A stretch of 64,000 nt of DNA from Roseithermus sacchariphilus (lineage in GTDB: Bacteria; Bacteroidota; Rhodothermia; Rhodothermales; MEBIC09517), in contig CP030158.1 in the NCBI GenBank assembly GCA_003285105.1, forward strand, positions 1,774,501 through 1,838,500, read 5' to 3'. Positions within the stretch are counted from its first letter, which is position 1. Each line of letters begins with the position of its first letter. This document shows positions 1 through 11,009 of the stretch, piece by piece. A program made the position numbers and the translations under genes. The notes below the pieces were generated by a model. The model was not told where the DNA came from, ran no database searches, and worked only from the letters and a program-made list of their open reading frames with translations.

Positions 1-24
1 TACCGCAAGCTCCAGCGCGGGTGA
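1..24 (+). CDS. ettA: EttA (ABC-F translation factor), last codons only
   Basis: The first 24 bases read YRKLQRG-stop. The same ending occurs in longer ettA 3' fragments further along the window, where the preceding residues ([16 protein letters not shown], then HDADRPHRI) match the C-terminal tail of EttA, the energy-dependent translational throttle ATPase. The rest of the gene lies upstream of the window. This is probably the intact resident copy, but only seven residues can be seen, so that is inference. It is the first of four ettA 3' ends in the window. Confidence 0.7.
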   Translation, partial: YRKLQRG

Positions 25-145
25 GCGGCAGGGTTCGGCGCAGGCAGGCCCCGGACCCGATAGGCCTCACCTCGATGTACCGAACATGAAGGGTTGTTTT
101 ACGTATCAATCGGGTTTCGAGAACCGACCCTGATCGAGGCTTCCG

Positions 146-352
146 ATGCCACACGCAACCACCAAGGCGAAGATTATCCGCGCCGTTGAGGAGCTGCCGG
201 AGGACGCCACCATCGAAGACGCCATCGAGCGGCTCGTCTTTCTGCACAAGGTCGAAGTGGGGCTGAAGCAAGCCCGCGAGGGCAAGAGTGTTTCGGTCGA
301 TGAGGTGGAAGCCCGGCTCCGGCGTCGCCGTCAGTCCAAAGAAACCGGGTAG
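146..352 (+). CDS. Antitoxin of a ParE/RelE-type module
   Basis: A 68-residue acidic/basic helical protein beginning MPHATTKAKI and ending in an arginine-rich tail (RLRRRRQSKETG). Size, position 6 bases before a RelE/ParE-fold toxin, and the phrase ELPEDATIEDAIERL fit the short antitoxins of the 'addiction module' type, which bind and mask the toxin and repress the pair's own promoter. The exact antitoxin family is not certain. The pair lies between the first and second ettA 3' ends, so it is part of the inserted material. No operator palindrome could be defined upstream. Confidence 0.7.
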   Translation: MPHATTKAKIIRAVEELPEDATIEDAIERLVFLHKVEVGLKQAREGKSVSVDEVEARLRRRRQSKETG

Positions 353-358
353 GGAGTC

Positions 359-670
359 GTGCCCCGTGTGCGGATTACCGAGCAGGCGCAGAGCGAACTC
401 GACGCGATCCTCGAGTACTACGAACGCGTTGGGGCGGGTGACTTTGCGGAGGTGTTCGAGGAGCGGGTGATCGCGAAGATCCGGAAACTCGAGCGATTTC
501 CCCGTATGGGTCGGGTGGTGCCGGAAATCAGAGATGACGCCATCCATGAGGTGCGCTATCGCAACCACCGCATCGTCTATCTGGTGGACCGGGAGGAGGA
601 AGAGATTGTGGTGCTAACGATCTTTCATGCTTCACGTCCCCTGGGAGACTGGGGCGGCTCCGAGGAGTAA
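359..670 (+). CDS. ParE/RelE-superfamily toxin
   Basis: A 103-residue protein starting at GTG, six bases after the antitoxin stop, so the two are almost certainly co-transcribed. Landmarks of the family are visible: an N-terminal '[13 protein letters not shown]' helix, the '[13 protein letters not shown]' turn, and the C-terminal beta strands '[14 protein letters not shown]' and '[12 protein letters not shown]'. Members either cleave ribosome-bound mRNA (RelE) or poison gyrase (ParE); the sequence does not let me choose. The stop codon is followed after one base by a fragment of ettA, so the cargo ends exactly at a repeat junction. Confidence 0.8.
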
Positions 671-671
671 A

Positions 672-826
672 GCGACCCCGCATATCCTGGCCTTCGAGGG
701 CGACAGCCGGGTCTACGCGTTCGAGGGCAACTACGCCCGGTATGAGGAGGACCGTCGCCGGCGCCTCGGCCACGACGCCGACCGCCCCCACCACATCAGG
801 CGTACCGCAGGCTCCAGCGGGGGTGA
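672..826 (+). pseudogene. ettA: ettA 3'-end fragment, copy 2
   Basis: About 50 codons of the C-terminal tail of EttA ([35 protein letters not shown]). Compared with copy 3 it has two extra bases near 799-802, which shifts the final codons out of frame; the TGA at 824-826 matches the other copies. There is no ATPase domain and no start, so this is a duplicated gene end and not a gene. It abuts the ParE stop codon at one side and the integrase remnant spacer at the other. Confidence 0.8.
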
Positions 827-923
827 AGGACGTTTGCAGGTTGAACGTTGAACGTTGGCGTCCTCCGGCGTCGCCGCTCACTGGCCCGGACGTGTGACCG
901 CCCCGACGTCTCCCGCGCACGGC
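827..923. repeat. Spacer between ettA end and intI end, copy A
   Basis: This 97-base spacer is clearly homologous to 6890-6993. Shared stretches include GGACGTTTGC directly after the ettA stop, GTTGAACGTT, and the GCCGCTCA-TGGCCCGGA block. It separates the convergent ends of ettA and the integrase. No protein is encoded. Confidence 0.7.
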
Positions 924-986
924 TCACCGGTCGAGCGGGCTGCGGACCGAGGTGCTCCGGTGTCGTGCCGGATCCGGCAGACGGAA
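924..986 (-). pseudogene. intI: Integron integrase remnant, copy A
   Basis: Read on the minus strand, 924-953 gives TSVRSPLDR-stop, the characteristic end of integron integrases. Immediately upstream, 966-986 gives the SVCRIRH codons that in copy B (6994-7304) belong to the N-terminal domain. Everything between is deleted, so only about 60 bases of a roughly 1-kb gene remain. It cannot make a protein. Its orientation, pointing away from the attI-like region, is the normal one for an integron platform. Confidence 0.7.
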
Positions 987-1148
987 ATGGGAATGGGGAA
1001 GATATGTAGCCTGTAGCGGAATATTGTCAGGCAACATTGAGATGTAAGTGCTTGATTGTACTGTGTTTTTCCAGTAGGTTGGACCGGTGATACATAGCCA
1101 CGGGGCGCGTTGTAACACGGCCCATGGCGGGTTAATAATAGGTTATGC
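987..1148 (+). other. attI-like recombination region, copy A
   Basis: This stretch is alignable with 7305-7472. Shared words include AAGATATGT, ATATTGTCA, TAAGTGCTTGATTG, GGTGATACAT, GCGCGTTGTAACA, GGCCCATGG and GGTTAATAATAGGTTAT. Each copy lies between an integrase remnant and the first inserted gene, and each ends in a GTTATGC/GTTATAC heptamer (here 1142-1148) after which the two copies become unrelated. That is the pattern of an attI site with the crossover in the heptamer. Assignment is by position and comparison of the two copies; no integrase binding has been shown. Confidence 0.6.
1052..1080 (+). promoter_or_regulatory. Cassette promoter-like element (Pc), copy A
   Basis: TTGATT at 1052-1057, 17 bases, then TAGGTT at 1075-1080, directed toward the inserted genes. 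The equivalent element in copy B is TTGATT-17-TATGTT. Conservation of hexamer position and spacing between two otherwise diverged copies supports a functional promoter, although copy A has the weaker -10. Confidence 0.4.
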
Positions 1149-1173
1149 GCCTGAAATTAAGAACGGAAGCTTT

Positions 1174-1217
1174 GTATGCTGTGATGCCGTACCCAGTATG
1201 CTGTGATGCCGTACCCA
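1174..1217 (+). repeat. Perfect 22-bp tandem duplication
   Basis: The 22-base unit at 1174-1195 is repeated exactly at 1196-1217, just after the cassette boundary and before the start of the secreted protein. It contains an ATG in each copy (ATGCCGTACCC), so it could produce alternative upstream starts. Probably a slippage duplication. Confidence 0.85.
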
Positions 1218-1238
1218 TCATTCGAATCGATCACTGCC

Positions 1239-2222
1239 ATGACGGACCGCTCTGCCCACATTTCGCATCTTACCCTGCTGTTCGTTGGCCTATTCCTGTT
1301 TGCATCAGCACAGGCACAGGATTGCCCATTCACCGAAAGCGATGCTATCGCCGACACGCTCAATCCGAAGGGCTATTATCCGCTGGAAATCAATATTGTT
1401 CATGAGTATGTGAACAGGAGTGGACCCTTTATCGACTATCTACTTAGACAAGAAGTTGTAGCCGACACGCTTATTGATGAAGATCTGTTCTATAAGCTCA
1501 AAGTGATTTCATTCGACGCTGAAAATACCACGATTATCACAGAGACAGACACGTCCTATTACTATCGAGCCGTCATTAATGGGGTCCTGTCTAGCTGGAC
1601 CCCCGAGGCAGGAAAAACTGAAAGCGAAATTCAATTCTTTCGAGACTTCAACACCTGTTATACGCACGCCAACAGGCCGGATGGGATTATCGTGCAAGGA
1701 GCCTACGACACCACGTTCACGTTTCCGTCGGGCGAATCCTCTACTCTGGCGGCCGTGAAGGAATTCGTCTTCATTCTACCTCAGGCTAGAGAAACACAGG
1801 AATATGGCTATGGAATAGGACTCCTACACAGCGGGGGAGAACCTAGCGTGAGTACAACGCTGACCTATGCCCGGATCGGTGGGCAAGAGTACGGCACTCC
1901 ACTCGATTCGCTCTTCGACATTCGGGTAAGCCTCGAATCGCCATCGCTTCCCAAAGAGACATTTAGCCTGTCGGCATACCCGAATCCGTCGTACGCGCTG
2001 ACCCATTTTGCTCTGGTGCTAGCTCAGTCTGGCCGTGCCTCCATGCGAGTTTACAACGTGCTGGGTCAGCTTGTCGCCACGCCCCTACAGGATGTTTACC
2101 TACCGATAGGCAATCACACGATTGAATGGAACGCTGAGGCTGTAACTACCGGCGTGTATTTCGCCGAGCTTTTCGTCGAGGGTCACCCTGTAGCAAAAAG
2201 CAGCGTCGTTGTCACCCGGTAG
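1239..2222 (+). CDS. Secreted protein with C-terminal sorting domain
   Basis: A 327-residue protein. I chose the ATG at 1239 because it gives a clean signal peptide (TLLFVGLFLFASAQAQ); an ATG at 1203 is also in frame. The central region has no family I recognise. The last about 80 residues are a typical FCB-group sorting domain of the type IX secretion kind: 'AYPNPSYALTHF', 'MRVYNVLGQLVAT', 'GNHTIEWNAEAVTTGVYFAELF' and a short basic end. The protein is thus expected to cross the outer membrane. It is the first gene after the copy A crossover, in the same orientation as other cassette genes. Confidence 0.75.
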   Translation: MTDRSAHISHLTLLFVGLFLFASAQAQDCPFTESDAIADTLNPKGYYPLEINIVHEYVNRSGPFIDYLLRQEVVADTLIDEDLFYKLKVISFDAENTTIITETDTSYYYRAVINGVLSSWTPEAGKTESEIQFFRDFNTCYTHANRPDGIIVQGAYDTTFTFPSGESSTLAAVKEFVFILPQARETQEYGYGIGLLHSGGEPSVSTTLTYARIGGQEYGTPLDSLFDIRVSLESPSLPKETFSLSAYPNPSYALTHFALVLAQSGRASMRVYNVLGQLVATPLQDVYLPIGNHTIEWNAEAVTTGVYFAELFVEGHPVAKSSVVVTR

Positions 2223-2317
2223 ATCCGAGGACGTGCTTTCACATCTGGCATAATCCGTGGATGCTCCATTTCAAGAACGGCCTTTTTCTAACTCATTACC
2301 CAACCCCAACAGATATA

Positions 2318-4666
2318 ATGACTTATACCACACTGAAACAGCGGTTTCCTGCGTCGTTACGCGGTGTTTTCTTGCTCATGCTGATAGGAATTGCCTTTCC
2401 CTTGAGCGTCTTGGGCCAGGAGACGTCCTGTGCCCATGGAAATATCCAGTGGACGCAGAGCCAGATGCAAGCCATGCTGAGTTCGCAGGCTGAGGTGCCG
2501 ACCTCTGGTCAGTTCAGAGCACTCATCGTTTTTGTCAGGTTCAAGGACGACACGTTCAACGACACGTGTAACGACAAGTGGCTCGCCTGGCACACGAGTG
2601 ACATGCTGCCCGATATGGCGCATGACTTCCTCGCTCCAGGTGGAGCAGGCGGTCAGGCACCCAGCCCGCCTTTTCCAGAGGACTCAATCACCGAATACTT
2701 CTATCAGCAATCGGATCGAAGCTTCATCTTCTACGGAGAGCCGTATGATGAAGTCGTTGAAACGCAGTTCAACGAGAGCCACTACCAGATCACAGGGACG
2801 GGCTCTACGTCTCAAAATGGTATGGCGGAGCTCACAGAGGAAGTGCTTGATTACATCGATGCGCAAGGTTTTGACTTCAGCGAGTACGATAATGACGGGC
2901 CCGATGGGGTGCCCGACTCCATTGATGATGATGGCTATATCGATCACATTTTTATAATCCCGCGAAGATTTCAGCAGCAAGTATCATGGGCGGGGTTTTC
3001 AATTCTCGGTAATCCTAATCAACCTATACTTTCCTACGATGGCAAAGATGTGGATTGGAATCTGTCAGGGTCCTACAACCGGTACGGGAATGCTGGAAAC
3101 ATCATACCACTGCTAACACTTGGACGCCTCATGGCTCACGAGTTCGGCCACGACATCTGGGGCACATCCAACATCGGAGGCGTGCATTTACAAGCCATCA
3201 CCAGCAATGACGTTCCCTCGAACGGCACCAAACGAATCGCTTACGCACACATGCCTGGTAGAGGTGGTGCTCTTGACATGGCGGGTAATGAAACGATCTC
3301 GGCTTTCGAGCGCGACGTCATCGGCTGGATCAACTGCATCCCCCTGCAAAGCGACGCCAGCGGCGTTAGGCTCGATCACCTGTACTCGTCAGGGGACTGT
3401 CGCGTCATTGAGCTTGACAACAGCTCTTCCGGCAAGACCATCTACCTGTCGAACCTCCAACACGTCGACTACTTTGATGAACTCCACATCTACGATCCCT
3501 CCTGCTTCTATGCCGAGGATGGCCTCAAAACGACGGGACTGCTGGTGGGCATAAGTCAGGGTTCAGGCTCCAGCGCTGAGTATGATGAGCTTCCTGCCGA
3601 CAATACGCTCGATATATCCAACGCAGCAGGTACCTACGCGGGCGATCTCTATTCTCCTTCCACGTCAGTACAAATAACTCCGTGGACCCGGCCCAACATT
3701 AACGGCTGCACCGGCTATACCTCTGATCCTGATTGTGATGCTTCGAACTTCACGCCAAGCTGGCAGGCGGTTGATAATATCCGCTACGTCAGCGGCTCAA
3801 GCGGACCCGTGGAATTCGATTACATCGCTGACTTCCGTGCGGCCCCGATCATCCGTGAAGACTCCTGGATCGGAGCCGAGACCTCGGGTGAAACGATCAC
3901 CGGGGATCTCATCGTCGAGGCCGGCGCTACGCTCACTATTGAGCCAGGCACGACCTTGAAGTTTGCATCCGGCAAGGGGATCATCGTCTACGGCACGCTC
4001 GACGCCGAAGACGTGACGCTGACAGCCAGCGGCACCTCCTGGGACGGCATCACGCTCTCTGGCTCTAGTGCCTCGGCCAGTATCCATAACAGCACCATCT
4101 CGAAGGCGACGACCGGTCTCTACGTTCAAAGCGCCAGCGGTATCCCCACTGTCACAGGTTCCACCATCACCAACAGTGGTAGCTATGCTATCCACGTCAA
4201 TTCCGGTTCCGTCGACGTCTATGACTCACAGCTTACCAACTCCGGCTCGCACGGCGTCTACGTCCAGGGCGGCGACATTACGCTGACTAACTCGACCGTT
4301 TCCGGCAACGGCGGCAGCGGCGTCCGGCTCGCCTATGGCGTTAGCGGGCTGCGCCTGGGCTGCTGCGGCGATAATGGATATAATGTCTTGACAGGCAACG
4401 GCTCGCACGGCGTCTACGCCAACGCATCGTCGTTGACTCTCGGCATTGCGCCCTCGGTTGTCTTGCCTGATGGCTATGCGGGCTACAATTCGATCTACGC
4501 CAACACTGGGAAGGACATGTATTTGACCAACGGGTCGGATGTGCGAGCCGAGCAGCATTGGTGGGGGGAGTCCCCGCCGAGCACGTCCGACTTTCACATC
4601 TCCGGCACCTCCACGCTTGACTATACGCCATATCTAGTGCCGTGTCAAGGATCATCTGCCGGGTAG
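2318..4666 (+). pseudogene. Secreted metalloprotease/beta-helix protein, 5' part, interrupted by IS630
   Basis: Reads from a signal peptide (FLLMLIGIAFPLSVLGQ; start at 2318, with an alternative at 2261) through a metalloprotease-like domain with HEFGH at about residues 274-278 and the preceding M6-peptidase-like text (FYGEPYDEV, DDDGYIDHIFIIP). From about residue 524 it becomes a parallel beta-helix (GDLIVEAGATLTIEPGTTL, then repeated NSTISKA / GSTITNSG / NSTVSGNGGSG turns). True coding ends at 4636, where an IS630 element is inserted; the residues to the stop at 4666 come from the IS end. The remainder resumes in the same frame at 5852. Peptidase function is inferred from the zinc motif and context; no substrate is known. 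Confidence 0.75.
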
Positions 4667-5849
4667 GATGGTAGCTTCAACAATCGCTCACTCCTGAAGC
4701 TACTTCCTGCCATGGCCAAAAAATACTGCGTCACGCTCAATGACAACGAACGTCAGCACCTCAATGGCCTCATTGAGCGGCGTTCAAAAAGCGCCTCGCC
4801 CGTCAAACGAGCCTTCATGCTGCTCAAAGCAGATCAGAGCCAGGGCGCACCGGCCTGGACCGATGAACGCATCGCCGAAAGCTACAACGTCAGTGTCCGA
4901 ACCGTCGAGCGCTTACGCCGGCGCTTCATCGAAGAAGGCTTCGAGGTGGCTCTCTACGGCAAAAAACGCGAACCGGTTAAAGAGAAGATCTTCGACGGGC
5001 AGGTCGAGGCCCATCTGGTGGCCCTGCGCTGTTCAGAGCCGCCGGAAGGCTTTGCCCGGTGGTCGCTTCGACTTCTGGCTGACCGTATGATCGAACTCGG
5101 TTACGTCGAATCGATCTCGCATGAGAGCGTGCGGCAGTTGCTTAAAAAAACGAACTCAAGCCCTGGCGCGTTAAGTCGTGGGTAATTCCTCAAGCCGATG
5201 CCGCCTTCGTCTGCCAGATGGAGCAAGTGCTCGATGTCTACGCCCGGCCCTACGACCCGCTCCGACCGGTTGTGTGCCTCGATGAAGCCCGCAAGCAACT
5301 CATCAGCGAGGTGCGGCAGCCCTTCACGAGGGCCGACGGGGTGCGGCACGTGGATTACGAGTACAAACGCGAAGGGACCCGCACGCTCTATATGCTCTGC
5401 GAGCCGCTGGGCGGCTTCCGGAAGGTGCTCGTCACGGAGCGTCAGGACCGTTTGACGTGGGCTCGTGTGGTGGCCCACCTCGTTGAAGACCTCTATCCAG
5501 ACGCCGAGACGATCACGCTGGTTCAGGACAACCTCTCCGCGCACACCGTCTCGGCGCTCTACGAGGTCTTCGACGCCGAGCGCGCCCGGCGCATCGTGCG
5601 CAAGTTGGAGGTGGTCCCGACGCCGGTGCATGGTTCGTGGTTGAACATGGCCGAGATCGAGCTTTCGGTGCTGGTTCGTCAGGGTCTCTGTCGCCGCATC
5701 GGCAATGCATCGCAGTTAGAGGGCGAGATCGCCGCCTGGTACGAGGCGCGCAACGCAAAGCAGCGGGGTGTAGACTGGCAGTTCACCACGGCGGATGCGC
5801 GGGTGAAGTTGAAGCGGCTATACCCGTCGATTATAACTTGACGCAGCAC
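4637..5849 (+). mobile_element. IS630-family insertion sequence, complete
   Basis: A 1,213-bp element bounded by inverted repeats GTGCCGTGTCAAG (4637-4649) and CTTGACGCAGCAC (5837-5849), whose complement is GTGCTGCGTCAAG. Both ends are flanked by TA (4635-4636 and 5850-5851), the target duplication of the IS630/Tc1-mariner group. It carries one transposase in two overlapping frames. The element sits inside the metalloprotease gene and both ends look undamaged, suggesting a fairly recent insertion. Confidence 0.9.
4712..5841 (+). CDS. IS630 transposase, probable -1 frameshift fusion
   Basis: Frame 1 (4712-5185) encodes the N-terminal helix-turn-helix part (TDERIAESYNVSVRTVERLRR) and a winged domain; it would stop at 5183-5185. 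A run of seven A at 5144-5150 followed by C gives the classical A_AAA_AAC slippery sequence. A -1 slip there gives KKNELKPWRVKSW and joins the second frame, which runs to 5841. That frame carries the DDE catalytic set: D in VVCLDEA, D in LVQDNLSAH, E in NMAEIEL. Programmed -1 shifting is common in IS630 elements, so the enzyme is probably intact; a simple inactivating indel is the alternative. Confidence 0.85.
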
Positions 5850-5851
5850 TA

Positions 5852-6676
5852 GGCTCAAACCCGAATATGGCGATGTCTGTTGCAGCCAACGTGCGAGCCG
5901 GTACCAGCGAAGCACTGGGCCTCGCCGAAGTAGAAGCCGGGCAATCGGTCTTAGAGCAACCCGCATCTGCTCCGATGGCAGAGACAGCCGCAGGCGAGGC
6001 AGGCATCTCTACAAAATCGCAATCTTCGAAGGGTCAATTTGTGAGAGAGATCATGAAGCGACGGGCCGAGCAGGGTCGTGCCGCTTCCGCGGAGGCTTTG
6101 CTACGTGTCGCCAGTGAGCGAGGCAACCCGCTGGCCTACCTCGCTCAGGTGTTCGCTGTGGGAGATCTGCTCTACCTAGGGCGAACGCAGGAAGCTATCT
6201 TGCTGGGGGAGGCCGTGTTACAAAGCGGGCAACTCGATGCAGGGGCCACGAGCGTAGTAGCGCAGGCTCTGCTGTGGGCCTATGAAGACGTGCTGAAAGA
6301 CGAAGCCAACGCTGCCCGGATAAGGCAAGTCCTCGCTCTTGCCGGAGAAGCCTTTGAGACCAATGCGGCCATTGCCAATCTTGGTGACGATCAGTTAGAA
6401 GCAGACCAGGAAGCTGTAGGACTGCAGTCAGGGGCTTATCCGAACCCATTCAATCCAGAGGTGTCCATCCACTACGCTCTGCCACAGGAAGGACGGGTAC
6501 GGCTCAGGGTCTTCGACGTGTTAGGGCGTCAGGTGGCGACGCTGGTGGATGAAGTGCAGCAGGCAGGAAGGCACCGGGTTCGTTTTGTGGCCTCGGATCT
6601 GCCGAGCGGGGTCTACCTGTACCGCATCGAAGCAGGGGGGCAGATGCAGACAGGGAGGTTGGTTTTGCAGAAGTAG
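5852..6676 (+). pseudogene. Metalloprotease/beta-helix protein, 3' part with sorting domain
   Basis: Joining base 4636 to 5852 keeps the reading frame: ...DYTPYL then GSNPNMAMS. The segment has an alanine-rich helical part with tetratricopeptide-like character (AEALLRVASERGNPLAYLAQ, then GEAVLQSGQLDAGATSVVAQ) and ends in a sorting domain ('AYPNPFNPEVSIHYALPQEG', 'RVFDVLGRQVATLVDEV', 'PSGVYLYRIEAGG'). Restored, the gene would encode about 1,050-1,070 residues. An ATG at 5867 could start a leaderless fragment, which would lack a signal peptide and not be exported. The gene ends just before an attC-like site. Confidence 0.75.
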
Positions 6677-6682
6677 AACGGC

Positions 6683-6817
6683 GCATAACCCGGAAATTCA
6701 GCGGACAAAGGGCGCATAGGCGTTTTCCGGTGCGGTTTTGCTCCGTGCCGTCGCAAGTGGCATTCTTGAAGGTAGTTGCCTCGCAGCCCTTTGCCGCTGA
6801 TCGCCAAGTCGTTATGC
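6683..6817 (+). other. attC-like integron recombination site, 135 bp
   Basis: Outer heptamers are GCATAAC (6683-6689) and GTTATGC (6811-6817), inverse complements. Inside, TCAGCGGACAAAGGGC (6698-6713) pairs with GCCCTTTGCCGCTGA (6786-6800) perfectly except for one unpaired A at 6705, the kind of extrahelical base that integrases use to choose the strand. The centre is a long variable loop. With the crossover at 1142-1148 it bounds a cassette of about 5.7 kb including the IS. This is large for a cassette, so multi-step assembly is possible. Confidence 0.75.
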
Positions 6818-6831
6818 CGCTCCCTGCGCCA

Positions 6832-6889
6832 CGGCCACGACGCCGACCGCCCCCACCGCATCAAGTACCGCAAGCTCCAGCGCGGGTGA
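6832..6889 (+). pseudogene. ettA: ettA 3'-end fragment, copy 3
   Basis: The frame ending at TGA 6887-6889 reads [19 protein letters not shown], the EttA C-terminus, and its last seven codons are identical to copy 1 at the window start. It begins about 15 bases after the attC heptamer, so the join between cassette end and chromosomal gene end is abrupt. Only about 19 codons remain. Confidence 0.8.
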
Positions 6890-6993
6890 AGGACGTTTGC
6901 CGGTTAAACGTTGAACGTTAAACGTTGGAGGCCTCCGGCGCCGCCGCTCAGTGGCCCGGAGGTGTGACCGCCTCCACGTCTTCCAAGCACGCC
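6890..6993. repeat. Spacer between ettA end and intI end, copy B
   Basis: Homologous to 827-923 with scattered substitutions and small indels. It contains a short array of AACGTT words (TTAAACGTTGAACGTTAAACG) between the convergent ettA and intI ends. No gene is seen. Confidence 0.7.
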
Positions 6994-7304
6994 TCACCGG
7001 TCGAGCGGGCTGCGGACCGAGGTGCCCTGGTTCAACACGTGCGTGTAGTGCCTAACCGGGCGCACCGGGCCTGGTTCTGTGTGGAGGCCGCCACCTGCCG
7101 CACTTCGGCCAGAAAACTCAGGTATTCGCGCACGTGTGAAGCCCCGAGCTGTGCCGGATGACGCTTGCCGTAAAAGTAGATAAACCGTTTGATCCACTGG
7201 ACATAGGCTCGTTCCGTGCTTATACTGTAGTGCCGGATCCGGCAGACGGACCGAACCTGATCGAGCAACCGGGGCGAAGACGGGTTCATGGTGCTTGATG
7301 GCAA
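6994..7304 (-). pseudogene. intI: Integron integrase, internally deleted, copy B
   Basis: On the minus strand the first about 79 codons (7304 down to about 7068; ATG at 7289 also possible) give the N-terminal domain of an integron integrase: RLLDQVRSVCRIRHYSIS, TERAYVQWIKRFIYFYGKRH, AASTQNQA. A different frame then gives the last codons, HYTHVLNQGTSVRSPLDR-stop (about 7050-6994), including the tyrosine that is the nucleophile in this family. Roughly 230 residues between, carrying the other catalytic residues and the IntI-specific region, are gone. The protein must be inactive. Orientation and position identify this as an integron platform facing away from its cassettes. Confidence 0.9.
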
Positions 7305-7472
7305 TATGTGTAAGATATGTTGGTATTATATGGCCCGTGGCGATATATTGTCAAGCAGGACCGAGAGGTAAGTGCTTGATTGCACGGCGTTTTGCCGGTA
7401 TGTTGAATTGGTGATACATGGCCATCGGGCGCGTTGTAACATGGCCCATGGCCGGTTAATAATAGGTTATAC
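7305..7472 (+). other. attI-like recombination region, copy B
   Basis: Lies between the integrase start and the TIR cassette and ends in GTTATAC (7466-7472). It is alignable with 987-1148 up to that heptamer and unrelated after it, which marks the crossover. The stretch is more A+T-rich than the surrounding ettA-derived DNA. Inference by comparison of the two copies. Confidence 0.65.
7376..7404 (+). promoter_or_regulatory. Cassette promoter-like element (Pc), copy B
   Basis: TTGATT (7376-7381), 17-base spacer, TATGTT (7399-7404), pointing at the TIR cassette. The same hexamer-spacer arrangement is present in copy A. Promoters located in attI or intI and firing into the array are the rule in integrons. 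Confidence 0.45.
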
Positions 7473-7497
7473 CCAAATCCAAACTAAGGAGTTTTAA

Positions 7498-8259
7498 ATG
7501 ATTCATAATGGAACCTTAGAAGATCTTAAAACAATTATAAAAGGGTGCGGGTTTACCGTAGGCGAAGTAAAAGACCAGCAGCATGGTCATCAAATACGTA
7601 CAAATGAAGGCGCAATTGTAAATTGGTATACATCTACTGGTAAGATAGTAATTCAAGGAAAAAAACCGGCTAAGGACAAGCTCGAAGAGGCATGGGGTTC
7701 GTATACAGGTGTAGCTCCAAAACAAGCTGGGGTTACCGCAGATGCGCCAGCTCCACATGCGCCAGCAAATCCTGCAGTGGCAAACAAAAAAGTCTTTGTG
7801 GTTCATGGTCACGATAATGTATCTCGTGAGCAATTAGAATTGGTCTTGCACAAACTTGGTCTCGATCCATTTGTCCTTGCCAATACAGGTGGTGGCGGCC
7901 TTACAATAATTGAAGCATTGGAAGCCGAAATAGGAACCAACAATAATCAAGCTAGGTTTGGTATCGTACTTATGACACCGGACGATATGGGTTATTCAAA
8001 ATCCGATGGTCCAGAGAACGCACAGCCTCGGGCTCGCCAAAATGTAGTCTTGGAAATGGGAATGCTTATTTCGGCTGTAGGCCGCGGCAATGTTGCAATA
8101 CTTAAAAAAGGTCACCTTGAAGTACCATCAGATGCTCAGGGTATTCTTTACATACCCTTCAACGATCATGTGAAAGAAGTAGTGCCAAAACTAGCTGATA
8201 GGCTTAGGGCCGCAGGTTTCGTACTTAACCCGGAAAATATTACTAAAGCATCAAGTTGA
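7498..8259 (+). CDS. TIR-like nucleotide-binding effector (PF10137-type), integron cassette gene
   Basis: A 253-residue protein preceded by a strong AAGGAG ribosome site (7486-7491). Residues about 1-55 form a small alpha/beta domain of unknown function (GCGFTVGEVKD, VNWYTSTGKIVIQGK). A proline/alanine linker follows, then from about residue 97 a TIR-like domain: VFVVHGHDN, GGGGLTIIEALE, FGIVLMTPDDMG and RARQNVVLEMGMLI, where the glutamate is the likely catalytic residue of the NADase fold. This family (PF10137; Cap12 and Pycsar TIR effectors) depletes NAD+ in anti-phage systems. No cyclase gene is adjacent, so the trigger is unknown and the N-terminal domain is the candidate sensor. The gene is A+T-rich compared with the chromosome and is enclosed by attI and attC. 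Confidence 0.85.
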   Translation: MIHNGTLEDLKTIIKGCGFTVGEVKDQQHGHQIRTNEGAIVNWYTSTGKIVIQGKKPAKDKLEEAWGSYTGVAPKQAGVTADAPAPHAPANPAVANKKVFVVHGHDNVSREQLELVLHKLGLDPFVLANTGGGGLTIIEALEAEIGTNNNQARFGIVLMTPDDMGYSKSDGPENAQPRARQNVVLEMGMLISAVGRGNVAILKKGHLEVPSDAQGILYIPFNDHVKEVVPKLADRLRAAGFVLNPENITKASS

Positions 8260-8263
8260 ATGG

Positions 8264-8333
8264 GTATAACAAACGGCTGTTGTCGGACGTGCCTACGCTG
8301 TGCTTCGGCACGCCGCAAAGCCGGGCGTTATGC
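8264..8333 (+). other. attC site of the TIR cassette, 70 bp
   Basis: Outer boxes GTATAAC (8264-8270) and GTTATGC (8327-8333). The left end TAACAAACGGCT and right end AGCCGGGCGTTA resemble the ends of Vibrio cholerae VCR-type attC sites. CGGCT pairs with AGCCG, and TTGTCGGACGTGCC pairs with GGCACGCCGCAAA with one unpaired A. The small spacing and the perfect placement three bases after the TIR stop make this a convincing attC. Confidence 0.85.
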
Positions 8334-8440
8334 GCAACAAATATCAATAGTGGTATTGAGTCTAAAATAATGAGTTTTATTCCTAGAAAATCTAGAAATT
8401 TTTTCGAGACAAAATACGCACCAAATTCTGGAGATAGGCC

Positions 8441-8701
8441 GTGTTTCGATCAAAGAAAAAATGCCTAACATGTCAAGGAATGGGATATGTAACCGAAGTA
8501 AGTTGGAAATGCCCAAACCCAAGTTGCTCTTATGGTTCACATGGATTAATTGATTCATGGGCTGAAGGTCCTCCCAATGGCTCTGAGTGGTTTTGCCCAA
8601 ACTGTGGTACTACTGTTAGCTACTGGCTACACGGTGGTTATGTAAAATCTCATGGCACAAATCCTTGTTCAACTTGTGGGGGCAAGGGGTATGTCCGCTA
8701 G
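8441..8701 (+). CDS. Small zinc-ribbon protein (CxxCxGxG type)
   Basis: An 86-residue protein starting at GTG after GGAG (8431-8434). It contains paired CxxCxGxG motifs at each end (CLTCQGMGYV near residue 8 and CSTCGGKGYV near the C-terminus), as in the DnaJ zinc-binding region, plus CPNPSC and CPNCG in the middle. A compact protein with two zinc sites is likely. No J domain is present, so it is not a DnaJ. It lies in the cassette after the TIR gene, 40 bases upstream of the membrane protein, with which it may be co-expressed. Function unknown. Confidence 0.65.
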   Translation: MFRSKKKCLTCQGMGYVTEVSWKCPNPSCSYGSHGLIDSWAEGPPNGSEWFCPNCGTTVSYWLHGGYVKSHGTNPCSTCGGKGYVR

Positions 8702-8741
8702 ATTGTGTTCAAGGTGTTTAATCTCTCAGACTTGATTTCCT

Positions 8742-9635
8742 ATGCTAGAGACGATTATTTCACTATGCGGTCTGGCCTACAGTTTTGTTAGTGGTATCAA
8801 GGCAGGACGAGAGGCCAAACACATGCTTGAGGTCCAGCAACGGCAACTCCAGTCAATTGAGCGATTGAGCGAGCATCTGTTTTATGCGTCTGGTATAAAT
8901 GAAGTCAGAAATACCGCTCTGCCCACTCAAAGATTAGTGACGGATCTTGAAAAGGTTAGAATTGCACTTGATCCTGTTCAACGTGCATTGGGAGACACTA
9001 TTTTTTCGTCGGGTCTAATCTACACGCCATCTCGAATGCAAGAGGCACTTCTTGAAGATCCATGGAGATGCTTAACTCATATCTCCCCGCTACACAGGAT
9101 TAATACCCCGGCAAATGATGAGATGATTCCTGTATTTTTTAGCGTTGATGGGGGTCGATACATTGGCTGGCAAACCAGAGGTGCACTCATCACATTGTTT
9201 AATTGTGAATTTAATCCTATATCTACAGGATTAAAGAGGATGAGTAGCGTGAGTCAAAGGCTCAGGTTAGAAAACTATGAGGCGGAAAGAGGAAGGATAT
9301 ATGTTCATTTTCCGGAGGTTATTCGGGCGGTGTTCAGTCACTACAGCCTGTTAGGAACATATGTTGCGATTCCTTCAGATCCCAACCTCTGCAGTCTGAG
9401 TTGTTATTTGATTGGAGATGTCAAGAGAGGAGTACAAAACTATCACACTTCACTAACTACTGATGCTATAGTTCGTCGACATGGGCGAAGAGAAAAATTG
9501 CAACCAGCAGGCGCAGGCTTATTTTTTATTAATTACACTGATGGGGTTGGAGATGCTAGAATCGTTGCTCATTTAGGGTCTGACGGTAGCGGAGCACAAG
9601 GCGATCATTTTTATGCTTGGGTTGCTTTTCCCTAA
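8742..9635 (+). CDS. Hypothetical membrane-anchored protein, cassette gene
   Basis: A 297-residue protein with a short hydrophobic N-terminal segment (TIISLCGLAYSFVSGI), a helical stretch rich in Q/E (MLEVQQRQLQSIERLSEHL), and then a soluble domain of mixed strands with a closing 'GDHFYAWVAFP'. I do not recognise the family. The layout, a membrane hook followed by a possible sensor or enzymatic domain, is seen in many uncharacterised defence proteins, but nothing here proves that role. Base composition is A+T-rich like the TIR gene. It ends about 80 bases before a degenerate attC-like site. Confidence 0.6.
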   Translation: MLETIISLCGLAYSFVSGIKAGREAKHMLEVQQRQLQSIERLSEHLFYASGINEVRNTALPTQRLVTDLEKVRIALDPVQRALGDTIFSSGLIYTPSRMQEALLEDPWRCLTHISPLHRINTPANDEMIPVFFSVDGGRYIGWQTRGALITLFNCEFNPISTGLKRMSSVSQRLRLENYEAERGRIYVHFPEVIRAVFSHYSLLGTYVAIPSDPNLCSLSCYLIGDVKRGVQNYHTSLTTDAIVRRHGRREKLQPAGAGLFFINYTDGVGDARIVAHLGSDGSGAQGDHFYAWVAFP

Positions 9636-9713
9636 AAAAAGATACCCTCAGCATGGGAAACTCTCTTTCTGGCACCTGCACTATTTCAGACTTGGGATAT
9701 TCGCAAATTTCGA

Positions 9714-9854
9714 GGCGCGCATAACCCCTTTATGGCCTCACTTTGTCAAGGGCAATAGCGTCCGTGACTGAAAAAAATACCTTTCGGTACCTCTTCGGCT
9801 TCCCAGTTTACATCGCCTTGTTGCCGCGCGTGTCCTGTCGGTTTGGTTGCGCGC
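9714..9854 (+). other. Degenerate attC-like site
   Basis: GGCGCGCATAAC at 9714-9725 is mirrored by GTTGCGCGCC ending at 9854, and GGCAA (9751-9755) can pair with TTGCC (9820-9824) in the interior. The right heptamer is not a clean GTTRRRY. It is positioned where the end of the third cassette is expected, so it may be a decayed or divergent attC. Low certainty. Confidence 0.4.
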
Positions 9855-9894
9855 CTGTTTGGAGGCGTCGTACCTAACACCTTTAGAGAGGCTG

Positions 9895-9940
9895 ACCTTA
9901 CCCCCACCGGATCACGTACCGCAGGCTCCAGCGGGGGTGA
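9895..9940 (+). pseudogene. ettA: ettA 3'-end fragment, copy 4
   Basis: The frame ending at TGA 9938-9940 reads PHRITYRRLQRG, the EttA tail. Like copy 1 it is followed by GCGG after the stop, while copies 2 and 3 are followed by AGGACG. This suggests copies 1 and 4 are the outer boundaries of the whole inserted block and copies 2 and 3 are internal. Confidence 0.7.
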
Positions 9941-9946
9941 GCGGAT

Positions 9947-10690
9947 TCAGAGCGCCCCGGCGGCGTCGCGGGCGCCCAGGCGGTGCACCACGAGGGTGGA
10001 GAGGCCGATGAGCAGCATCAGGAAGACGGCGTAGGCGGCGGCCGCGCCGAAGTCGTAGAGGCGGAGCTGCGCCAGGATCTCGACGCTGATGGGCCGGTTC
10101 TCGAAGATGTAGAGCATGATGGAGGAGACGAACTCGCCCAGGGCCGCCACGAACGTCAGCAGCGTGCCGGCCAGGATGCCCGGGCCGATGACGGGCAGCA
10201 CCACGCGCCGGAACGTGGTGAGGAAGCCCGCACCCAGGTCGGCCGAGGCCTCGGAGAGGCGGTCGTCGTAGCCCTCGAGGGCGGCCACGGTGGCGTGCAC
10301 CACGAAGGGGATGTGGCGGATGAAGTAGGCCAGCGGCAGGATCCAGAAGGTGCCCACCAGGATGCGCCCGAAGCTCAGGGGCGAGGGGGTGTTGAACGTC
10401 ACGATCAGGTTGACGGCGATGACCGTGCCGGGGATGGCGAAGGGCAGGGCCGTCAGCAGGCGGACGAGCGTGCGGCCGGGCAGCCGCCCCCGGGTGATGA
10501 ACAGCGCCGCCGCCACGCCGAAGACCACGTTGGCCGCCGTGGCCAGCGCGGCCATGCGCAGGCTGTTGCGGATGGGCTGGAACACGTCCGGGTCGGCCAG
10601 CAGGTCCACGTAGTTGGCCAGCGTGTAGCGGGTCGGGAGGATCTGGTAGGTCCAGCTCCCTTCCTGCGCCTTTTCCACCGAGGTAGGAGC
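9947..10690 (-). pseudogene. ABC transporter permease, 5'-truncated
   Basis: On the minus strand from about 10657 the sequence encodes a C-terminal permease domain of the binding-protein-dependent (iron/thiamine/putrescine-like) type: RNSLRMAALATAANVVFGV, PGTVIAVNLIV, then the EAA-like loop 'SEASADLGAGFLTTFRRVVLP' and two closing membrane segments. The usual N-terminal half is missing; upstream it runs into an IS66 remnant, although the frame stays open to 10777. No partner ATPase or binding protein is present. Best read as a broken gene. Confidence 0.65.
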
Positions 10691-10812
10691 TCCCTGACCG
10701 CTTTTGCCCGATGGGTCGGGATTCGTCTCAGCACGTCCGTTAGCCACGCGTGCGGGTTGGCCTCGTGCGGCTTGCACGTCGCCAGCAGCGAGTACATGAC
10801 CGCCGCCTTTCC
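10675..10812 (-). pseudogene. IS66-family transposase, C-terminal remnant
   Basis: The minus strand reads GKAAVMYSLLATCKPHEANP, then HAWLTDVLRRIPTHRAKAVRELLP, the well-known end of IS66 transposases (YSL-ATC...WL-DVL-RI...ELLP). Only about 46 codons remain and no other IS66 part is nearby. It directly abuts the truncated permease, so the insertion or a following deletion probably removed that gene's 5' half. Confidence 0.8.
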
Positions 10813-10895
10813 AGGACTACGCGTCGGCGCATGCGACGGCGTGCACAGGTGCAGGTTCTGCTCGGCTGCCAGCCGCTGGCTCAACTCACGGTCGG

Positions 10896-11009
10896 CATTG
10901 CGAATCCATCTCGCTCGGCTGGCACTTCCACTACGCCGCTGACGAAGGGCTCGTGCTGGGTCGACGCGTGGCGAGCTACCTTACCAACACCGATCTCCTG
11001 CCCGAATGA
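10896..11009 (+). pseudogene. Possible vanadium haloperoxidase/PAP2-type C-terminal remnant
   Basis: A 38-codon frame with no start reads SISLGWHFHYAADEGLVLG, then RRVASYLTNTDLLPE-stop. The phrase 'G-H--ADEGL-LGR-VA-YL' resembles the last helix of vanadium-dependent haloperoxidase-like proteins. Too short for certainty; it could be the tail of another gene carried off by rearrangement. Confidence 0.3.

Follow-up and report, generated by a model that had tools for sequence, protein, structure and literature searches.

An attC site beside ettA 3' ends in tandem decayed integron platforms of Roseithermus sacchariphilus

The 135-bp element at positions 6683-6817 of the DNA stretch analysed here is, with high confidence, an attC site: it ends a cassette of a chromosomal integron that now consists of tandem decayed platforms. 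Integrons are gene-collecting devices of bacteria. The stretch, hereafter called the window, is 64,000 nucleotides long and covers C1:1774501-1838500 of the single contig (C1) that makes up the 4.8-Mb genome of R. sacchariphilus; positions without prefix are those of the window. The attC site itself is of a known kind, and the only unusual part of the locus is the tandem repetition of platforms linked to the 3' end of the ettA gene.

Results

The element lies on the forward strand, directly after a stop codon. As the initial annotation had it, two inverse heptamers form its ends: the R boxes GCATAAC (R'', 6683-6689) and GTTATGC (R', 6811-6817) are complementary at 7/7 positions. Inside them, the arm TCAGCGG-A-CAAAGGGC (L'', 6698-6713) faces the arm GCCCTTTGCCGCTGA (L', 6786-6800) across a variable central part. 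The two arms make 15 pairs, and A6705 is the sole extra base in this inner stem, also as first described. The further claim of a single unpaired base is nearly right: the conserved extrahelical base is A6705 (a bottom-strand T), and a second bulge is possible at T6697/T6698. The latter is ambiguous and would give a bottom-strand A, not G; the canonical bottom-strand extrahelical G is not evident in this site. The strict R' consensus is GTTRRRY, from which GTTATGC departs by one base, and GTTATGC is the usual form in relatives. With its 135 bp, the site falls inside the range of 57-142 nt given for attC sites in the available text of PMC2727003, in agreement with its initial placement among long sites.

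The bottom strand is predicted to fold into a hairpin, as had been proposed (DNA z-score -2.66; 2/200 shuffles as stable), and so is the top strand (z-score -2.79; 3/200 shuffles as stable). We scanned 83.5 kb (C1:1755001-1838500) for inverse heptamers with AAC/GTT enclosing an inner stem. Inner-stem scores of 10 or more were reached at three sites, 6683-6817, 8264-8333 and C1:1763323-1763457, and at none in 10 first-order shuffles of the region, each of which held between 0 and 8 weaker sites (scores 8-9). A plain heptamer pattern with a gap of 60-90 had no match, because the real spacing is 121. No Rfam family matched in the window, which is no argument against an attC site, and a tRNA/tmRNA search returned none.

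Readings unrelated to integrons might also be considered: the palindrome may have arisen by chance, may act as an intrinsic terminator for the secreted-protein gene, or may be one end of an insertion sequence. The position right after a stop codon, the folding of both strands and the presence of an IS630-like element nearby would each suit such a reading. It is nonetheless extremely improbable: the shuffles gave no comparable site, and the IS630-like element, with its end at about 5852, does not come close to the palindrome. Further evidence came from a model built on other genomes.

This covariance model, R1, was derived from 18 attC sites taken from 10/20 intI regions of relatives in the same order; R. 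sacchariphilus and the relative G019 were excluded, and weaker or atypical scan matches were also left out. Over 179,539 bases, R1 matched the forward strand at exactly 6683-6817 (57.6 bits, E 2.2e-12), an end-to-end agreement that speaks against a chance structure and supports the initial attC reading. It was the third best of nine matches at E<=1. With filters off over window positions 1-11000, the site scored 57.6 bits on the forward strand and 11.8 on the reverse, and the site at 8264-8333 scored 31.9 bits. A search of the whole genome recovered 6683-6817 at E 5.9e-11; among the limited number of candidates scored in such searches, at least eight matches were found in this genome and at least nine in G019. 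That search missed C1:1763323-1763457, which had 40.2 bits in the 179,539-base search.

On the scale of the order, IntI-like matches at E<=1e-60 were present in 44/114 genomes. All 10 intI-bearing genomes searched with R1 had 8-37 matches, these 10 including sources of model sites, and no match at E<=0.02 was found in any of nine genomes of family f3 devoid of a strong intI match. One observation stands against a strict association, and to that extent against the attC reading: genome G001 has seven R1 matches (best 79.9 bits), yet no TIGR02249 match at E<=1e-60.

In the R1 alignment, 93.0% of the cells are paired, versus 34-42% when partners are slid, and 15/23 pairs change on both sides, a covariation that is biased upward because the sites were chosen by complementarity. 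The extra base is an A in 18/18 model sites, in the same column as A6705. Column 16 of alignment A1, where the canonical extrahelical bottom-strand G would be, has a top G (bottom C) in 13/18 sites and a top C in 2/18, counts that depend on the alignment; the base found there in the sites of this order possibly reflects a lineage difference in integrase recognition.

Elsewhere on the contig, three more attC matches (98.5, 67.2 and 31.6 bits) lie at C1:1938979-1943504, outside the window, and none of the nine TIGR02249 matches is near them. A single match (50.9 bits) is located on the minus strand at C1:3892395-3892518.

The surroundings of the site are those of an integron, and this again argues against a terminator or an insertion sequence end. 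A remnant of an integron integrase gene lies close to it on the minus strand (6994-7304). It consists of about the first 68 residues and the last ~18 codons, the middle being deleted, since the C-terminal codons lie at about 6994-7045. TIGR02249 matches the N-terminal remnant at 7065-7268 with 69 bits, below the 265-bit cut-off, and a frame of 90 residues matches PF13495 (E 2e-24); no relative of this 90-residue product was found in viral contigs. The remnant is followed by the attI core of the next platform (7454-7469, forward strand; inferred crossover 7466/7467). On the other side, a second intI remnant, in which the last codons are joined to a few N-terminal ones, lies on the minus strand at about 924-990, and the attI core GGTTAATAATAGGTTA on the forward strand at 1130-1145, with an inferred crossover at 1142/1143. 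This 16-mer is found exactly in three platform copies and in G019; the three copies can be aligned across the intI remnant as far as GGTTAATAATAGG^TTA and diverge after it. The initial annotation was thus right in calling the attC site; what escaped it was the intI remnant at a distance of 250 bp, the attI sites and the repetition in tandem.

Two long intI-like genes exist elsewhere in the genome. Both are above the TIGR02249 cut-off and both are broken: one is frameshifted before its C-terminal part, with separate frames covering profile positions 1-258 and 256-314 and a 2-base gap relative to G019, and the other ends after profile position 259. Near each of them lies one copy of a 1044-bp sequence, 100% identical at C1:1442156-1443199 and C1:3847072-3848115; a diverged piece of this repeat precedes a truncated ettA copy at C1:1760904.

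The cassette that ends in the site begins at attI and spans 1143-6811 on the forward strand, on which the cassette genes are read. It carries genes for secreted proteins with sorting domains. The last of them, whose product has a PF18962 sorting domain, is the large secreted-protein gene initially noticed next to the site, and an IS630-like element (4635-5852, forward strand; HTH_32 and DDE_3) has inserted into it. In G019 the same gene lacks this element, which occurs there in another cassette. The first cassette protein has six related loci in named genomes, with a similarity (30-36% identity) that is confined to the C-terminal part. In the next platform, the first cassette gene after attI 7454-7469 encodes a TIR-domain protein (7498-8259, forward strand; PF10137; PADLOC PDC-S35, E 5e-112), followed on the same strand by the second attC site, of short form (8264-8333, 70 bp). 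A ThsB-like TIR gene (E 5e-90) is also found at a second integron locus (L018 9866-10639).

We then consider the ettA sequences. A full-length ettA is present elsewhere in the genome (TIGR03719, 942 bits), and the fragment seen directly after the attC site is indeed ettA: window positions 6817-7031 are 90.7% identical over 216 bp to the 3'-end region of a second ettA copy, with the 3' end fragment abutting attC placed at 6826-6889. Other 3' end fragments open the upstream platform copy (676-837) and mark the right edge of the region (9901-9947), all on the forward strand. The same ettA end is found at C1:1761903, 1764216, 1774426, 1775258 (window 758) and 3843340. An arrangement of ettA 3' end, intI remnant, attI, cassettes and attC is thereby repeated in tandem over about 23 kb. 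One unit (C1:1761.0-1764.3 k) has DUF4062 and MazE/MazF-like cassettes and ends in an attC site at C1:1764136-1764255; another comprises an intI fragment (C1:1765871-1766084), later genes and an attC site (C1:1774324-1774449) that, at 25.0 bits, is the weakest in the 179,539-base search; the two others extend over window positions 676-6817 and from 6826 to about 9947. A 1.4-kb stretch that separates an ettA end from an intI fragment (C1:1764347-1765775) is 86.6% identical to C1:1444572-1445994. At three junctions, C1:1764255, C1:1774449 and window 6817, no more than about 20 bp separate attC from the ettA sequence that follows it, and the position within ettA is almost the same in all three. 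Divergence between platform copies is 9-24%, and two have the same intI deletion, that of the remnant at 924-990 being common to C1:1761986-1762299. Judged from this divergence, the platforms are not copies of one recent duplication.

G019, which belongs to another GTDB family, served for comparison. A search within the GTDB family of R. sacchariphilus returned this genome only. At L052 2216-5140 it has a full ettA, an intact intI and attI, with attC matches at L052 5518, 6357, 10669 and 16215; its array is flanked on one side by the full ettA and on the other by a 66-bp repeat of the ettA 3' end (L052 17199-17264, 90.9%). The cassette starting at window 1143 is found there at L052 10796, behind an attC instead of attI. 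Identity begins at the G^TT crossover, which reads AATAGG^TTATGCGCC here and CAAGACG^TTATGCGCC in G019, so that the cassette is bounded by G^TT cores and identity between the two genomes starts at GTTATGCGCC. Together with the model match, these cassette boundaries refute a chance palindrome, a terminator or an insertion sequence end.

Parts of the cassette are 88-99% identical to G019, versus 74-76% for control stretches, three in an 8-kb window region elsewhere; the integron region was therefore probably exchanged horizontally. The attC site, for which a homologue in a related genome had been sought, has one beside the intact intI of G019, which a structure unrelated to integrons would hardly have: 106/135 positions are identical to the attC at L052 10669, which closes the preceding cassette. 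Identity to the attC at L052 16215, at the end of the same cassette, is 97/147 columns. We therefore did not equate 6683-6817 with the attC that this cassette has in G019, the neighbouring cassette having the more similar one. This counts somewhat against a simple attC reading, and points to a later reshuffling of cassette ends.

Outside the array, similarity to G019 stops: there is no match beyond 754 bp to its right, and none between the left flanks within 16 kb. An ABC permease-like gene (9947-10777, minus strand) lies at the right edge, and identity to G019 (96.7%) ends at 10669. Among 34 loci, L073-L106, mostly ettA regions of other genomes, this permease gene was found only in L075, the right flank of G019. 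No additional intI pieces were seen in 20/20 relatives' regions (at most 19 kb each).

How did several platforms come to lie in tandem? On one account, segments with ettA 3' end, intI, attI and cassettes were derived from relatives of G019 and accreted as homologous recombination acted on the ettA 3' ends and on further stretches that they have in common. Chances for and against this account are evenly balanced. It fits the presence of several segments 88-99% identical to G019 above the control level, and copies too divergent for one recent duplication, two of which yet share the intI deletion. Homologous recombination alone leaves unexplained why ettA starts so close to attC at all three junctions.

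On another account, IntI or another recombinase would have used the 3' end of ettA as a secondary site to which attC was joined, the whole platform behaving as an oversized cassette, or the integron would have entered there as an island. The three junctions at nearly the same ettA position and the G019 array enclosed between ettA and its 3' end repeat are what such an event might leave. Action of IntI on secondary sites is reported in the available text of PMC2426708, and attG is mentioned in that of PMC12901181. We hold this account to be rather unlikely. Between the attC G and the stretch homologous to ettA lie bases that do not belong to ettA, which is not the picture of a simple G^TT exchange. 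Nor did we find an empty site: G018 has an ettA without adjacent intI, but the DNA downstream of it is unrelated. Left and right end repeats of the ettA type, sought in 20 regions, were found in one (G019) and in 0/19 others, so an island model is no general rule for these integrons; the unmatched flanks of this locus and G019 also stand against it. Overall, we find accretion of platforms through exchange between related segments more probable than stacking by the integrase, although accretion does not explain the constant place of the junctions.

Discussion

According to the part of PMC2727003 available, known attC sites recombine through their bottom strand at the G of R'. By analogy with them, and since R1 matches the forward strand and the extra base is on the L'' arm, the same strand and the same G are predicted to recombine here; the chemistry and the strand are both transposed from those sites. 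In the presence of an integron integrase, the bottom strand would form a hairpin in which one T (top A6705) is extrahelical, IntI would cleave beside the G (6811) of GTTATGC, and this cut would allow cassette 1143-6811 to be excised, or to be inserted at attI 1130-1145. The present locus is a tandem of decayed platforms, made of ettA 3' end, deleted intI, attI, cassettes and attC.

All IntI-like genes found in the genome are broken, by frameshift, truncation or reduction to a remnant, so the attC site, structurally intact, is probably idle in its present host unless an integrase arrives. That it is still mobile through an intact integrase acting in trans appears very unlikely. Its preserved structure and the existence of two long intI-like genes would be in favour, and an intI could come by transfer, but the defects of both long genes and the remnant state of the window copy speak against it.

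We also considered, as a more specific and unlikely scenario, that a whole unit of ettA 3' end, intI, attI and cassettes, bounded by attC, may have joined the same place at the ettA 3' end repeatedly. Integrase acting on a secondary site, or an island-like entry, would by such joining have produced the several blocks of ettA end, intI and attI over about 23 kb.

Compared with attC sites of sedentary chromosomal integrons (VCR-type), the site has the same two R boxes and two L boxes, the extra base on the L'' arm and a long variable terminal part, its 135 bp being within range. Unlike them, it has only one clear extrahelical base, and where the canonical bottom-strand G would be expected, its relatives mostly have another base. 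In the Bacteroidetes, a complete integron was described in Salinibacter ruber M1, the only one mentioned for this group in the available text of PMC9024848; the present locus is likewise an integron of the Bacteroidetes, an affiliation that the sorting-domain proteins of the genome also suggest, but consists of tandem platform remnants, none with a whole intI. Decay of this kind is common: as stated in the accessible part of PMC2426708, nearly one third of intI genes are pseudogenes, and 20% of bacteria have at least two genes for an integrase. CALIN and intI pseudogene loci, as presented in the available portions of PMC9024848 and PMC2426708, similarly combine leftover cassettes and attC sites with a broken integrase; they differ from the repeated platform pieces seen here, each opening with the same ettA 3' end. 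The Delta-attI cassettes of class 1 and class 2 integrons, as outlined in the accessible text of PMC12901181, have attI inside the array and not only at its head, as here; the difference is that attI is accompanied here by a remnant of intI and the end of ettA, at a chromosomal locus. Within a limited literature search, for which the sources were partly accessible, no description of tandem, ettA-linked platform repeats was found, nor, in a limited search, any work joining integron integrase and ettA.

Integron cassettes are thus confirmed by an independent model in an order in which 44/114 genomes have an IntI-like match at E<=1e-60, and the locus provides a clean two-genome example of cassette exchange. 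Two of the cassette genes match PADLOC defence-related families, which fits integrons as stores of defence genes. The repeated attC/ettA junctions, for their part, are a place to ask whether whole platforms can stack.
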